From Actinomycetota bacterium (lineage in GTDB: Bacteria; Actinomycetota; Actinomycetes; Streptosporangiales; Streptosporangiaceae), in contig DAHWEX010000636.1 in the NCBI GenBank assembly GCA_027326205.1, positions 1-35,177 of the forward strand: a stretch of 35,177 bases of DNA, given 5' to 3'. A program made the translations under genes and the position numbers. The notes beneath the pieces are model-generated. The model saw nothing but the letters and a program-made list of their open reading frames with translations. It did not search any database and was not told where the DNA came from. Each line of letters opens with the position of its first letter. Within the stretch, counting starts at the first letter, position 1. Positions 12,781 to 18,973 of the stretch are shown here, in pieces.

Positions 12781-12814
12781 CGTTCGTGTTAGCCGTTCGT
12801 GTTAGCCGTTCGTG
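12781..12814. repeat. 13-bp tandem repeat over the peptidase stop codon
   Basis: Unit CGTTCGTGTTAGC occurs at 12781-12793 and 12794-12806, with a partial third copy from 12807. On the minus strand each full unit carries AACGGCTAA, which is the last codons and stop of the peptidase gene, so the stop region has been duplicated. Because 13 is not a multiple of 3, the copies place stop codons in different frames. Confidence 0.85.
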
Positions 12815-14460
12815 CTCGGCGTCGTGCCGCTCAGCAGGGTGAGCAGGGCGCCGCCGTCCGGGGAACCGAGGCCCGTGCAGGCGTCCCACCCGGGGCCGGC
12901 CTTGTACGCGCCGTTGTCGCCCGAGACGATGTCGTTGAAGCCCGGCTGGGCGACGCCCGGCGCCACCCCCGCGTACAGCAGCGGCTGGAGCAGGCCGAAC
13001 CGCTTGCCGGTCGCCTGGGCGAGACGGGCGATGAGCCCGGCCCACAGCGGCGCGACCGCGGAGGTGCCGCCGATCGGCTCCTGCTGCCCGTCGACGACGA
13101 CCAGGTACCCGGTCACCGGGTCGGCGTTGCCCGCCACGTCGGGCACGCCGCGCCCGCTGGCCCCGCCCGACGCCGAGCCGGGGACGCCGGCTCCTGCCTG
13201 GTAGGACGGCACCGGGAACACGTCGGACACGCCGCCGCCGCCCGCGCCCTCGTTGCTGGCCAGCTCGTTCCAGACGACCTCGGAGGTGATCGTGAACGTC
13301 GTGGTGTCGCCGATGAGCCTGGTCCCGCCGCAGGCGAGCGCGTTCGGCGAGGACGCCGGGAAGTCGCAGTGCACCTGGGTCTGCTCGCTCGGGTCGTCGC
13401 TCGCCCCGTTGTCGCCCGCCGCGACCGTGACGGTCACGCCGAGCGCGGCCGCGTCCTGGAAGGCCTGGTCCATGGCGGTGCGGGACTGGGCGGCCCACTG
13501 GTCCTCGGACTGGCCCCAGCTGATCGAGACCGCGATCGGGGCCGGCGTGGCGTGCACGGCCTCGGAGATCGCGTCGATGAAGCCCTGGTCGGTGTTGGGC
13601 GCGAAGTACACCTGCTGCGACGCGCCGGGCGCGACCCCGCCGACGACCTCGATGTCCAGCTCGACCTCGCCGTCGGCCTGCTGACCGGGGGAGTTGGCGC
13701 CGCCGTCGACGCCGACGGCGGTCACCGGGGGCACGGACAGGCCGAGGCCGGAGAAGTACGTGGAGAGGTCGGACGGCGTGAAGCCGCCGCCGAGTTCGAT
13801 GATCGCGACCGTCTGCCCGGTGCCGTCGGCGCTGGCCGGGAACTGGTAGAAGCCGGCGACCTGCGGCGCGGTCAGCGAGCTGCCCTGCGCCTGCCGCGGC
13901 GCCGGCTGCTTGCCCGGGTCGCCCGTGTCGTCGTCGTCCGGCGTGGCCATGGTCCGCGACCCGGCCGCCGGCGGCCGGCGGAACTGCGGGCGCGCCTGCG
14001 GCCGGTTGTCGAGGCCGAGCACGGCGGTGACGATCCCGCCGAGGCGGGCCGGCACCGAGAGGCCGCCGGTCCGGTAGCGGTGCTCCACGTCCCCGGACCC
14101 GTCGGGGTGCGGCGAGGTCACCGCGCTCAGCGACGTCCCGAACGCCGACTCGAGCCGCGCGATCGTCCCGCTCACCTTCAGCCGGCGGGACTCCAGGTGG
14201 GTCTCGGTGACGGTCAGCCCGTACGAGCCGAGCACCTCGCCGACGAGGCGGGCGTCGCCGGGGTCCGCGCCGTACTGGGCGCCAAGCTCACTGGTGCTGA
14301 TCGTCTGGGGCCCCTCGACGAGCTCGCGGGGCACTTCCGCGCGCCGCCGCAGCAGCAGGGTCACGGTGATCACCTGGTCGCGGTTGAGCGGCGTGGTCGC
14401 GGGCGCCGTGCCCGCCAGCTCTCCGCGCTCGCTGCCTGGCAGCGGTACTAGGTCTGGCAT
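12802..14460 (-). CDS. S53 sedolisin peptidase, kumamolisin-like
   Basis: A 552-residue serine-carboxyl peptidase very like Bacillus kumamolisin. Residues about 25-165 are the activation prodomain (ITVTLLLRRR...; LGLDNRPQARPQF). An Asp/Pro-rich linker (PDDDDTGDPG) precedes the catalytic domain. Catalytic residues are E265 and D269 in DGEVELDIEV, oxyanion D350 in AAGDNG and nucleophile S467 in GGTSAVAP. The calcium site is FNDIVSGDNGAY...GLGSPDGG. ATG 14460 is chosen because GGGGAGGATC lies 8 bases upstream. No signal peptide is seen, as in kumamolisin. Family members act at acid pH on collagen-like or general protein substrates. An XRE-STAND regulator gene lies upstream on the same strand. 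Confidence 0.93.
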   Translation of the reverse strand: MPDLVPLPGSERGELAGTAPATTPLNRDQVITVTLLLRRRAEVPRELVEGPQTISTSELGAQYGADPGDARLVGEVLGSYGLTVTETHLESRRLKVSGTIARLESAFGTSLSAVTSPHPDGSGDVEHRYRTGGLSVPARLGGIVTAVLGLDNRPQARPQFRRPPAAGSRTMATPDDDDTGDPGKQPAPRQAQGSSLTAPQVAGFYQFPASADGTGQTVAIIELGGGFTPSDLSTYFSGLGLSVPPVTAVGVDGGANSPGQQADGEVELDIEVVGGVAPGASQQVYFAPNTDQGFIDAISEAVHATPAPIAVSISWGQSEDQWAAQSRTAMDQAFQDAAALGVTVTVAAGDNGASDDPSEQTQVHCDFPASSPNALACGGTRLIGDTTTFTITSEVVWNELASNEGAGGGGVSDVFPVPSYQAGAGVPGSASGGASGRGVPDVAGNADPVTGYLVVVDGQQEPIGGTSAVAPLWAGLIARLAQATGKRFGLLQPLLYAGVAPGVAQPGFNDIVSGDNGAYKAGPGWDACTGLGSPDGGALLTLLSGTTPSTNG

Positions 14461-14758
14461 CGTGGGATCCTCCCCGTCAAGTCCGGCAGTTCCAGTTCCT
14501 GCTCCTACCAAGATTCTGTCGCGGCAGCGTCGCCGGCACCCCCGGTTCCGGCGCTATTCTCGCGGCTTTTCAGTGCGGCCCTGGAACGCTAGCGGGTCCA
14601 CGTGTCACGCATCGTGACCTCCTGTGCGGTTACCATCCGTGTATTTCCCCCGGTACCTACATCATCGGACAGTGACCGCCCGCAGGCCAGGCGAACTGAC
14701 CGGCAAACTACCGGAAGTGACGAAATTACCAAAGTCAGTTACAGGGCGTGAGTGACCG
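14461..14758 (-). promoter_or_regulatory. Peptidase upstream region with GTGAC/GTCAC palindromes
   Basis: This 298-base gap between the regulator and peptidase genes holds no gene I can support. It contains GTCACGCATCGTGAC (14604-14618; 6-bp arms round CAT), about 145 bases before the peptidase start. GTGACCGTCAC lies at 14752-14762, over the regulator stop. The same half-site occurs upstream of the regulator at 17229-17248. The peptidase promoter itself was not resolved. Confidence 0.4.
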
Positions 14759-17215
14759 TCACGCCGCCCCGACGTCGGCCGGCCCGCCGCGGACCCCCGG
14801 CCGCTCCGCCTTCGCGGGCAGCCGACCCGCCGAGAGCGCCGCGAGCCAGCCCCGCACCTTGGCCGCCGACGGGTGGTGCAGCGCCCGCAGGATCAGCAGG
14901 GACTCCTCCCACGCCTCCCGTGCCCCGGCGAGGTCACCGACCGCCACGTACGTCTCGCCCAGGTGCGCGAGCACCATCGCCAGGTCGTACCGGTTGCCCA
15001 TCTCCCGGTCCAGCGAGATGGCCCGGCGGAAGCAGGGCACCGCCTCGCCGTGCTCCCCGAGTCGCTGCAGCACGACGCCGAGCGTGTCCCAGGTGCCGGC
15101 CTCGCCGGGGGAGTACCCGAGCGCCTGGCACAGCTCGATCGCCTGATGGCAGAAGGCCCGTGCCTCCGACAGGTCGCCAAGCTGCGCGCTGTTCCACGCC
15201 GACCCGTTGAGCGCGCTGGCCCGCACGAGCATCATGTGCCGGTCGCCCGGCGCGCTCTCCGATAGCTTCAGGGCGTCGGACATGACCGCCAGGGCCTCGG
15301 CGTAGCGGCCCTGGAACTCCAGCGCCTGGGAGAAGATCACGTCGGTCCGGGCGAGCCCGAGGTCGTCTTCGAGCGACTTGAACAGCGACTGCGCCTCGGC
15401 CAGGTGCTCGTGCGCCTCGTCGAACGCGCCGAGCGACATGGCGAACGACCCGAGCCCGCGCAGCACCTGCGCCTCGCCCGGCATGTCGCCGTTGCGCCGC
15501 GCGGCCGCCAGGGCGAACTGGTGCAGCCGGGTGCCGTCATGCCAGTGCCCGCACACGTTGTGGAACGTCCACAGCACGGCGGGCAGCCGCCAGGCGTGCG
15601 CGTCGTAGCCGAGCCGGGCGGCCACCTCGGTCACCTTCAGCAGGACCTGGTACTCGGTCTCCAGCCAGGCCAGCGCGGACGCCTTGCCGCCGAACGTCTC
15701 GGGGACCACCCCGCCGGCGCACGCGTTCAGGTCGATCAGCTCCCGCCCCGGGTACAGCACCCGGTGCGCGGCGTGCGCGGTGTGCAGGTAGTGATCGAGC
15801 ATCCGCCGCGTGGTGTTCGCGACGCCGGCCTCGGCGGTGGGCTGCTCGGCCGCGTAGGCGCGCAGCAGGTCGTGGAACGCGAACCGCCCGGGGACGACCT
15901 CCATGAGCAGCGACGCCCGGGTCAGGTCGCGCAGCGCGACCCGCGCCTGCGGCTCGGTCACCCCGGCGAGCGAGGCCGCGGCGGCCGCGCTGATGTCCGG
16001 CCCGGGATGCAGCCCGAGCAGCCGGAACATCCGGGCCGCGGCCGCGGGCAGGTGCCGGTAGGACAGCGAGAGCACGGTCCGCACGTTCGCCGCCGGGTCG
16101 CCCACGTCGAGCGCGTCGAGCCGCCCGCCGAGCTCGGTCAGCTCGGCCGCGAGCGAGGACAGCGGCATCGTCGGCGCGGCGGCGGCCCGGGCCACCACCA
16201 CCGACAGCGCCAGCGGCAGCCGCGCGCACAGCGTGGCGAGCTGGGTGACCGCCCACGGCTCGGCCGCGGCGCGCTCCTTGCCGAGCCGGGTGACGAGCAG
16301 TTCGTTGGCCTCCTGCTCGGACAGCACGTCGAGCTGCAGCAGCCGCGCCCCCTCCCGGGCCGACAGCGCGGCGAGTTCCCGCCTGCTGGTGACGATGACC
16401 AGGCATTCCGGCGAGGCGGGGAGCAACGGCCGCACCTGGGCGACGTCGGCGGCGTTGTCCAGCAGCACGAGCATGCGCCGCCCGGCGACCACGCTGCGGA
16501 ACAGCGCGGCGAGCCCTTCGGCGTCGGTGGGCAGCCGGTCCGGGTGCACCCCGAGCGCGCCGAGGAAGCCGCGCAGCACGTCGGCCGGGTCGGCGGGCTT
16601 GCCGTTCCCCGCGTCGAACCCGCGCAGGTTCGCGTAGAGCTGGCCGTCGGGGAAGCGGGACGCGACCTGGTGCGCCCAGTGCAGCGCGAGGGCGGTCTTC
16701 CCGACGCCAGCGGTCCCGCCGATCGCCGAGATCACCACCCCGGTGGCCCCGACGGCCCGGTCGGAGGCCGCCTCGTCGAGCACGGCGTCGAGCTGCGCGA
16801 GCTGCTTCGTCCGCCCGGCGAAGTGCGGCACCCGGGTCGGCAGCTGCCGGGGCACCGTTACCCCGCTGTCTGTGTCGGCGCGCTCTGTAGCGGCGGTATC
16901 GGCGGGGTCGTCGGCACCGGACTCCGCCTGCCCCCCGCCGTCCCCGTGGGCGTCCGCGCCGGCCTGCGCCGCGCCGCCCCCGGCCCGGTACCGCGCGACG
17001 AGTTCCTCGCCCGTCTCCTCCGGGAGCCCGAGCGCGCGCACGAGGGCCCGGACGGACGACGGGTAAGGCCGCTTCGTCCGCCCGCGCTCAAGGTCCGCGA
17101 TTGCCCGTACCGACACCCGCGACCGCTCGGCCAGGTCCTCCTGGGTCAGCCCGGCAGCGACCCTCTGCTGCCGCAGCCACTCTCCGGGCCGCACCTGACC
17201 GGGATGTGCACCCAT
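14759..17215 (-). CDS. XRE-type HTH, NB-ARC/STAND ATPase, TPR regulator
   Basis: An 818-residue STAND protein. An XRE helix-turn-helix (residues 11-65: LRQQRVAAGLTQEDLAERS...SVRAIADLERG) is followed by an acidic/Gly-rich linker. The NB-ARC ATPase has Walker A GTAGVGKT (167-174), Walker B RRMLVLLDNA (246-255), sensor VTSR (275-278) and the GxP-type LPLA (333-336). A winged-helix region (to about 480) and TPR-like repeats follow to the C-terminus. ATG 17215 has AGGTGG 5-6 bases upstream. Such proteins are ATP-switched transcription regulators related to AfsR and lacking the SARP domain. A palindrome lies just before the gene. The peptidase gene downstream on the same strand is its most likely partner. 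Confidence 0.9.
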   Translation of the reverse strand: MGAHPGQVRPGEWLRQQRVAAGLTQEDLAERSRVSVRAIADLERGRTKRPYPSSVRALVRALGLPEETGEELVARYRAGGGAAQAGADAHGDGGGQAESGADDPADTAATERADTDSGVTVPRQLPTRVPHFAGRTKQLAQLDAVLDEAASDRAVGATGVVISAIGGTAGVGKTALALHWAHQVASRFPDGQLYANLRGFDAGNGKPADPADVLRGFLGALGVHPDRLPTDAEGLAALFRSVVAGRRMLVLLDNAADVAQVRPLLPASPECLVIVTSRRELAALSAREGARLLQLDVLSEQEANELLVTRLGKERAAAEPWAVTQLATLCARLPLALSVVVARAAAAPTMPLSSLAAELTELGGRLDALDVGDPAANVRTVLSLSYRHLPAAAARMFRLLGLHPGPDISAAAAASLAGVTEPQARVALRDLTRASLLMEVVPGRFAFHDLLRAYAAEQPTAEAGVANTTRRMLDHYLHTAHAAHRVLYPGRELIDLNACAGGVVPETFGGKASALAWLETEYQVLLKVTEVAARLGYDAHAWRLPAVLWTFHNVCGHWHDGTRLHQFALAAARRNGDMPGEAQVLRGLGSFAMSLGAFDEAHEHLAEAQSLFKSLEDDLGLARTDVIFSQALEFQGRYAEALAVMSDALKLSESAPGDRHMMLVRASALNGSAWNSAQLGDLSEARAFCHQAIELCQALGYSPGEAGTWDTLGVVLQRLGEHGEAVPCFRRAISLDREMGNRYDLAMVLAHLGETYVAVGDLAGAREAWEESLLILRALHHPSAAKVRGWLAALSAGRLPAKAERPGVRGGPADVGAA

Positions 17216-17228
17216 GATCACCACCTAG

Positions 17229-17248: not shown

Positions 17249-17590
17249 AAAGTCTAACTGGATAGTGGTTGCGGCGAAAGTTGCCAATCCCAAAACCCAA
17301 ACTCGGATGGTTTAGGGTCCATTGTCAAGGACGACCGTCAAGGAAGACCCAAGAATCCCCCGAACGGTCCCTCGTTTCACCCGTCCCTCAGTTACTGCTT
17401 TCGAGGGCGCAGGGCGTGCGGGTCCACTTCGCTTACCATCCCGAACCAGAAAACCGGTCATAACTTCCTGTCAGTCCCCACCCTCCCAGGGGGCCACACC
17501 AGCCTACGGTTTAGGTCCGACAATCGATCTCGAAACGGCGTCGGCCCGCACTGGAAATATCTTAGTCTGTGCTGTTCAAGATCGCTTATT
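17249..17590. other. Less GC-rich intergenic stretch without a supported gene
   Basis: This stretch is clearly poorer in GC than the flanking genes and has no open frame with actinomycete codon bias. It must hold the STAND promoter (minus strand). A plus-strand transcript ending at the hairpin that follows is possible. No confident -35/-10 pair was found, though TTGTCA (17322-17327) is a weak candidate on the plus strand. Confidence 0.4.
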
Positions 17591-17677: not shown

Positions 17678-18973
17678 TTACTTGAGGCCCAGGAACGCGC
17701 TGATGCTGGACCGGAGTCCCTTCGCGTCCAGGCCGTGCGCGGCCTGATGCTCGGCCGGGGTGCCGTACCGGCGCAGCTCGTCGCGTGCGACCCCGAGGCC
17801 GAGGACCCGGTGCGGCAGGTCGCTGAGTGCGCTGGCGACCGCCGGGACCGACGTTCCGGCGAGGTACGGCTCCACCAGGACCACGGCGGGCGCGCCGAGC
17901 GTCCCGCGCAGCCGCGCCGCCGGGAACGGGCGGACCGTGGCGGTGTAGAGCACGGTGACGTCGAGGTCGCGGGTGGCGGCGAGCACGGGGCCGCCCATCG
18001 GGCCGACGGCGACGACCGTGCCGCGGCCGCCGCGCTTGAGCACGGTGGTCCCGGAGGGCAGCGGCCATTCGTTGGCCTCGGTGGACAGGCGGACGTAGAC
18101 GCGCCCGTCGGCCCGGTACGCCTCCCGCAGCAGTGTCTCCGCCTCGTCCGGGTGCCCGGGCACGTGCACCGTCCAGCCGGGCAGCGTGTCGAGCAGCGCG
18201 ACGTCGCCCGGGGACTGGTGCGTCCGGCCGCCGGCCGCGATGTCGTAGGACGCGCCCGCACTGACCAGGACCGCGCCGACGTCCAGATGGTTCAGATCTA
18301 GCTTGACCTGCTCGAAGGGCCGCTCGACGAGGAAGCTGGCGAACGTGTGGGCGACCGGCCGGAGCCCGGCGAGGGCCAGGCCGCCGGCGACGCTGACCAG
18401 CAACTGCTCCCGGGAGGCGTTGTCGATGACGACGGCGTGCAGGTTGTCCAGCCGGGCCCGGCCCGCGTACGCGATCGCCTCGTGGTTCGAGCCCTCGTCA
18501 AGTTCCCCGTCCCCGATGAGCACCCAGACCTGGCTGGGCCGGCCCAGGGCGCGCAGGCCGAGCGCGGTCCCGACGGCGAGCGGGAGCCCGTGCCCGAGCG
18601 ACCCGCTTGAGATCTCCACCCCGGGCACGAGGGTCCGGTCCGGGTGCCGCCCGAGGACCGAGTCGAAGCCGCCGAACCCGTCGAGCAGGTCAGCGGGGAA
18701 GAACCCCTTGGCCGCGAGGACCGCGTAGTAGGCCATCGGGCCGTGGCCCTTCGACAGGTAGAAGCGGTCCCGTCGCTCGTCGCCGGCGGTGGCCGGGCTC
18801 ACCCGCAGCACCTTGTCGTAGAGCACCCACAGGACATCGAGCGTGGACGTGGCGGCTGTGTCGTGCTTCTCGTCGCCGGTCTGCCGTGACATGAGCGCGC
18901 GAAGATCGCCGTAGCCGTACCTGCCTTCGGCCCTTCGGCGTTCCGTCACGCTTTCGTGAGCGGTATCTGTCAT
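17678..18973 (-). CDS. Short fused transketolase, probable internal deletion
   Basis: A 431-residue TPP enzyme, while transketolases are normally about 620-700 residues or split into N (about 240) and C (about 300) subunits. Residues 1-185 match the N-subunit, including KGHGPMAYYAVLA and the TPP/Mg motif GDG (154-156)...N185. At about residues 186-189 the sequence jumps to REQLLVSVAGGLALAGLRP, the C-subunit pyrimidine domain with E189 (the usual TPP-activating Glu), THQSPGDVALLDTLPGWTV, and the C-terminal domain (FPAARLRGTLGAPAVVLVEPYLAG). The end of the first domain and start of the second are missing, in frame. ATG 18973 is the only sensible start. It may be a decaying gene or a compact enzyme; activity is doubtful. 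Confidence 0.8.
   Translation of the reverse strand: MTDTAHESVTERRRAEGRYGYGDLRALMSRQTGDEKHDTAATSTLDVLWVLYDKVLRVSPATAGDERRDRFYLSKGHGPMAYYAVLAAKGFFPADLLDGFGGFDSVLGRHPDRTLVPGVEISSGSLGHGLPLAVGTALGLRALGRPSQVWVLIGDGELDEGSNHEAIAYAGRARLDNLHAVVIDNASREQLLVSVAGGLALAGLRPVAHTFASFLVERPFEQVKLDLNHLDVGAVLVSAGASYDIAAGGRTHQSPGDVALLDTLPGWTVHVPGHPDEAETLLREAYRADGRVYVRLSTEANEWPLPSGTTVLKRGGRGTVVAVGPMGGPVLAATRDLDVTVLYTATVRPFPAARLRGTLGAPAVVLVEPYLAGTSVPAVASALSDLPHRVLGLGVARDELRRYGTPAEHQAAHGLDAKGLRSSISAFLGLK

Follow-up and report, generated by a model that had tools for sequence, protein, structure and literature searches.

Binding and activation of thiamine diphosphate (ThDP) depend on two domains, PP and PYR, which have similar structures and are both essential, and a GD-X25-30-N motif has been defined for enzymes of this kind (PMC2831816). 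In the split transketolase of Carboxydothermus hydrogenoformans (PDB 6yaj/6yak; PMC7661550), PP resides on an N chain of 309 aa while PYR and the C-terminal domain (TKC) reside on a second chain. The enzyme is an active alpha2beta2 tetramer of complete subunits and relies on domains from both chains (PMC7661550). Split pairs with an N subunit of ~230 aa are common in Actinobacteria, being found in 53 of 395 class genomes at E<=1e-60, Streptomyces included. One such pair, on plasmids of Streptomyces clavuligerus, is annotated 'transketolase (x2)'. No paper on these pairs or their substrate turned up in literature searches.

Here we analyze a window of 35,177 nucleotides from an actinobacterium of the family Streptosporangiaceae (assembly GCA_027326205.1, contig DAHWEX010000636.1), in which parts of both subunits of such a pair are encoded by a single gene (Table 1).

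Results

Table 1. Features of the fused transketolase locus, in window coordinates
Feature	Coordinates	Strand	Description and basis
Fused tktN'-'tktC ORF	17678..18973	minus	431 aa, ATG start, stop included; translation, Pfam, whole-genome searches
tktN-derived part, residues 1-187	18413..18973	minus	PP domain to VVIDNAS; KGH, SLGHG and GD-X29-N motifs; Pfam and tktN identity
tktC-derived part, residues 188-431	17681..18412	minus	PYR from the catalytic-Glu helix, and C-terminal (TKC) domain; Pfam and tktC identity
Deletion join	18412..18414	minus	Ambiguous by ~1 nt; junction codons compared with relatives, DNA alignment breakpoints, lengths
Perfect 20-bp inverted repeat, 4-nt loop	17595..17638		Directly downstream of fused gene; terminator scan

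A preliminary description of the locus had reported a 431-residue product in which VVIDNAS of the N subunit passes straight into the C subunit, with a join at about 18405-18425. Translation of the minus strand bears this out. The frame is open through the whole of 18973 to 17678, and the codon of S187 (18415-18413) is followed immediately by that of R188 (18412-18410), such that VVIDNAS runs directly into REQLLV and the boundary falls at 18413/18412. The plus strand of 17678-18973 does not encode the product. GC content by codon position (0.72/0.49/0.91 and 0.79/0.52/0.96) is that of normal coding sequence, and because both halves are ~60-78% identical to real split pairs, the ORF cannot be ascribed to chance. 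Where a split pair consists of two adjacent ORFs, encoding PP and PYR-TKC, the window has one that is continuous.

Pfam profiles delimit what is lost. Transketolase_N matches residues 35-185 (E 4.8e-22) over profile positions 22-183 of 334, and Transket_pyr matches residues 179-298 (E 3.3e-19) over positions 47-169 of 174. As the first match stops at 183/334 and the second begins at 47/174, the first domain truly lacks its end and the second its start while the frame is kept, as had been proposed. Two further features singled out in the preliminary description are likewise present: G154 D155 and N185 form a GD-X25-30-N motif in the PP part, and E189, the catalytic Glu of PYR, aligns with E366 of human transketolase. 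The Transketolase_C match (E 0.19) lies below the cut-off; the region nonetheless aligns to tktC of relatives. Against the transketolase equivalog NCBIfam NF004559 the fusion scores 165.6 bits, under the curated cut-off of 488, as do intact split subunits taken singly. Among solved structures, the N part is best matched by the N chain of the Carboxydothermus split transketolase (E 2.1e-34), whose C chain matches the C part (E 1.8e-17); the C part additionally matches 1-deoxy-D-xylulose-5-phosphate synthase (DXS).

Relatives were sought in GTDB genomes, which yielded 577 relatives of which the best 80 were kept, and in 299 family and 395 class genomes with one genome per species. The GTDB scan ranks by best segment and any joined gene would therefore come out on top. 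After duplicates were dropped, 100 distinct actinobacterial loci were aligned in full, and every one comprises two separate genes, tktN of ~230 aa and tktC of ~300 aa. The N part of the fusion is ~60-78% identical to tktN of these relatives and the C part ~60-73% identical to their tktC. The window join occurs in no other genome among the best 80 of the 577 GTDB relatives, the 299 family genomes and the 395 class genomes, and no close relative, whether carrying the deletion or lacking it, exists in the collections searched. An old family of transketolases of 420-440 aa would be expected to include many relatives as compact as the window protein. They were looked for in the same three sets and no further member was found: all examined relatives are split pairs of full subunit length, and the only other short fusion (locus L009, below) is joined differently. 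We therefore regard an old compact family as extremely unlikely. Genome searches had also hinted at natural in-frame fusions of full length; six such loci were checked, and all have a stop between the genes. No conserved gene neighborhood that might hint at a pathway was evident in 80 relatives. The N subunit of these pairs is unusually short, at ~230 aa against 293 aa in another split pair of the window genome and 309 aa in Carboxydothermus.

Comparison with intact pairs places the join and sizes the lost segment. At the DNA level the nearest relatives are L170-L172: one block of the alignment reaches 18414 and the other begins at 18411-18413, leaving ~350-410 nt of the relatives between the two, and the match switches from tktN to tktC at 18413/18414. 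Motifs located both junction points in 85 split relatives, and there the equivalents of S187 and R188 lie 308-432 nt apart (median 358), against 0 in the window; the upper value is 528 nt in a looser estimate that covers all loci. Lost with this segment are the tktN 3' end and stop, the intergenic gap, and the start and 5' end of tktC. Among the 85 relatives the two genes stand in random frame to one another (31/23/31 over the three frames); an in-frame join thus requires no selection and is expected in one of three deletions. The window gene is thus a tktN-tktC pair collapsed by one deletion, and its ancestry, the position of the join, the size range of the segment and, at the sampling used, its uniqueness are shown by these comparisons.

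A contig that skips an intact tktN-tktC pair carried by the organism, through misassembly, misbinning or capture of a minority variant, would look the same. The assembly, a fragmented draft in 830 contigs, is 93% complete, and the join is confined to this genome, whose seven genus mates lack the gene. However, no direct repeat as long as an assembler k-mer spans the join in relatives, and the missing segment is absent elsewhere in the assembly, where there is only a weak match, to another split pair. Moreover, an independent case in Streptomyces, described next, shows that such deletions occur. An artefact is thus an improbable source of the join. Deletion mediated by a direct repeat is also unsupported in the window: the sequence shared in register amounts to ~1 nt, and similarity over 21 nt in register (46% against a background of 30 +/- 10%) is not significant, ~10% of random pairs equaling it.

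The independent case is Streptomyces tailanensis TRM68348 (L009:475-1662), which encodes a 395-aa in-frame fusion of the same gene pair and is the only other joined gene to surface in the best 80 of 577 relatives. Here PGAEIG runs into RDGFAEAL. Its intact relatives carry CGCCGAGATCGGCAG or a sequence near it at both join places, most clearly in L085, and the deletion spans this 14-15-nt direct repeat, removing ~525 nt, the whole GD...N motif included. Without that motif the L009 product must be inactive and cannot be a ThDP enzyme. The window and L009 fusions are independent events, and such in-frame collapses therefore recur.

The flanking DNA was compared with that of the genus mates. In all seven the tkt gene is absent, the best matches being paralogues of ~40% identity, and the flanking genes have their relatives on separate contigs. 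Genus mate L169 keeps the downstream genes for an HTH/NB-ARC/TPR regulator (14762-17224) and a kumamolisin-like peptidase (12805-14511), collinear and at ~79-81% DNA identity, without tkt. The L169 match ends at window position 17287, which puts the tkt gene at the edge of a syntenic block. The inverted repeat sits between the fused gene and the regulator gene, with a T-run on the plus strand, opposite to both.

Conservation and structure prediction bear on what the fusion could do. In the alignment of 100 distinct relatives, the deletion accounts for the loss of 14 near-invariant residues of the family; of the 154 that survive it, 151 are intact. The three altered positions are Q230L, R313K and D351P; most intact relatives have 0-1 changes. 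Fast evolution as a sign of decay is not seen: the branch (0.21) is not unusually long, and the root-to-tip distance is among the shortest. An AlphaFold2 model of the fusion reached a pTM of 0.68, versus 0.84 for an intact pair, that of L117, translated across its stop and modeled from the same kind of alignment. Confidence was lowest at the join and in active-site loops, with a pLDDT of ~50 around the join and in several PYR loops, while the C-terminal domain was well predicted (block pLDDT mostly 83-96, residues 311-390). By TM score (query length) the model matches human transketolase at ~0.70, compared with 0.75-0.77 for the control; this transketolase-like match is what the alignment would lead one to expect and does not indicate activity.

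Neither ThDP-binding domain is complete relative to the control. PP lacks its last two strands and helices (H198-204, E208-213, H217-225 and E233-238 in control numbering), and PYR lacks its first two (H273-287, E291-295, H297-309 and E314-316). With two core strands and helices gone from each alpha/beta domain, the modeled fusion would very probably be unable to build a ThDP site.

Discussion

The window gene probably records a real and recent deletion that kept the frame and struck a dispensable split transketolase; the resulting fusion is probably inactive. The ancestor was an ordinary two-gene cassette of the type common in Actinobacteria, with tktN encoding the PP subunit and tktC the PYR and C-terminal subunit. 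A single illegitimate deletion of ~310-430 bp took the tktN 3' end, the gap and the tktC 5' end, the frame being kept by chance. In the product the catalytic Glu and the cofactor-metal motif remain, whereas core elements of both domains are gone. Elsewhere the genome encodes a single-chain transketolase of 690 aa and a further complete split pair, which suggests that loss of function in the fused gene would be tolerated. The gene is probably a young, still open relic heading for decay. Little sign of decay is yet visible, and this speaks against such a reading: the frame is open, composition is normal, nearly all surviving conserved residues are kept, the branch is ordinary and the model still resembles transketolase overall. 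The preliminary description had proposed a recent deletion of a split tktN-tktC pair. The deletion is strongly supported by the 100 split relatives, the unshared join and the failure to find the segment anywhere else; its recency we infer from the lack of decay and of genomes sharing the join.

Retention of the frame and of surviving conserved residues is also what would be seen if the fusion were under selection in a changed role, either as a non-catalytic partner or as a merged alpha/beta domain with VVIDN in place of VINVGI. In both parent domains the join falls at the end of a strand and the start of a helix. VVIDN of PP stops at the point where VINVGI of PYR would stop, before the catalytic-Glu helix, and with topologically similar places thus joined in two domains of like structure (PMC2831816), a merged domain is conceivable, but similarity of the DNA at the join does not clearly exceed background. 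The form is nevertheless known from a single genome, with no relative sharing the join and S. tailanensis joined elsewhere; model confidence is poorest at the very point of merger, and one in three deletions would be in frame anyway. Selection for a changed role accordingly seems unlikely.

The other proposal of the preliminary description, a minimal transketolase, is unsupported as a family, the compact form being unshared, and is unlikely as an enzyme given the core strands lost from both cofactor domains. For activity, the merged PP/PYR domain would have to fold and a homodimer would have to bind ThDP between the GD...N and E189 sites, giving a transketolase of ~430 residues, an outcome we consider very unlikely. 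Were the fusion active, it would count as an unusually small ThDP enzyme of the transketolase type, with a bearing on the origin of PP and PYR from a common fold. As found, the locus offers a clear case of a split enzyme pair collapsing into one frame, twice independently and with different joins, and it cautions against mistaking such ORFs for single-chain transketolases.

Placed among known systems, the fusion shares the PP-PYR-TKC order of DXS and single-chain transketolase, and its model matches their overall fold; those enzymes, however, are ~580-700 aa long with complete domains, whereas the fusion has 431 aa and incomplete ones. The Carboxydothermus split enzyme has the same allotment of domains to N and C parts, on separate complete subunits instead of a single truncated chain. 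The S. tailanensis gene is, like the window gene, an in-frame collapse of the same pair, and differs in its PGAEIG/RDGF join, its repeat and its loss of GD...N. The S. clavuligerus plasmid pair and the pairs at loci L010-L088 are collinear with the fusion, ~60-78% identical to its halves and alike in motifs and C-terminal domain. These pairs comprise two genes, separated by a stop and a start, whose PP and PYR domains are complete, whereas the window has one ORF without those 308-432 nt.
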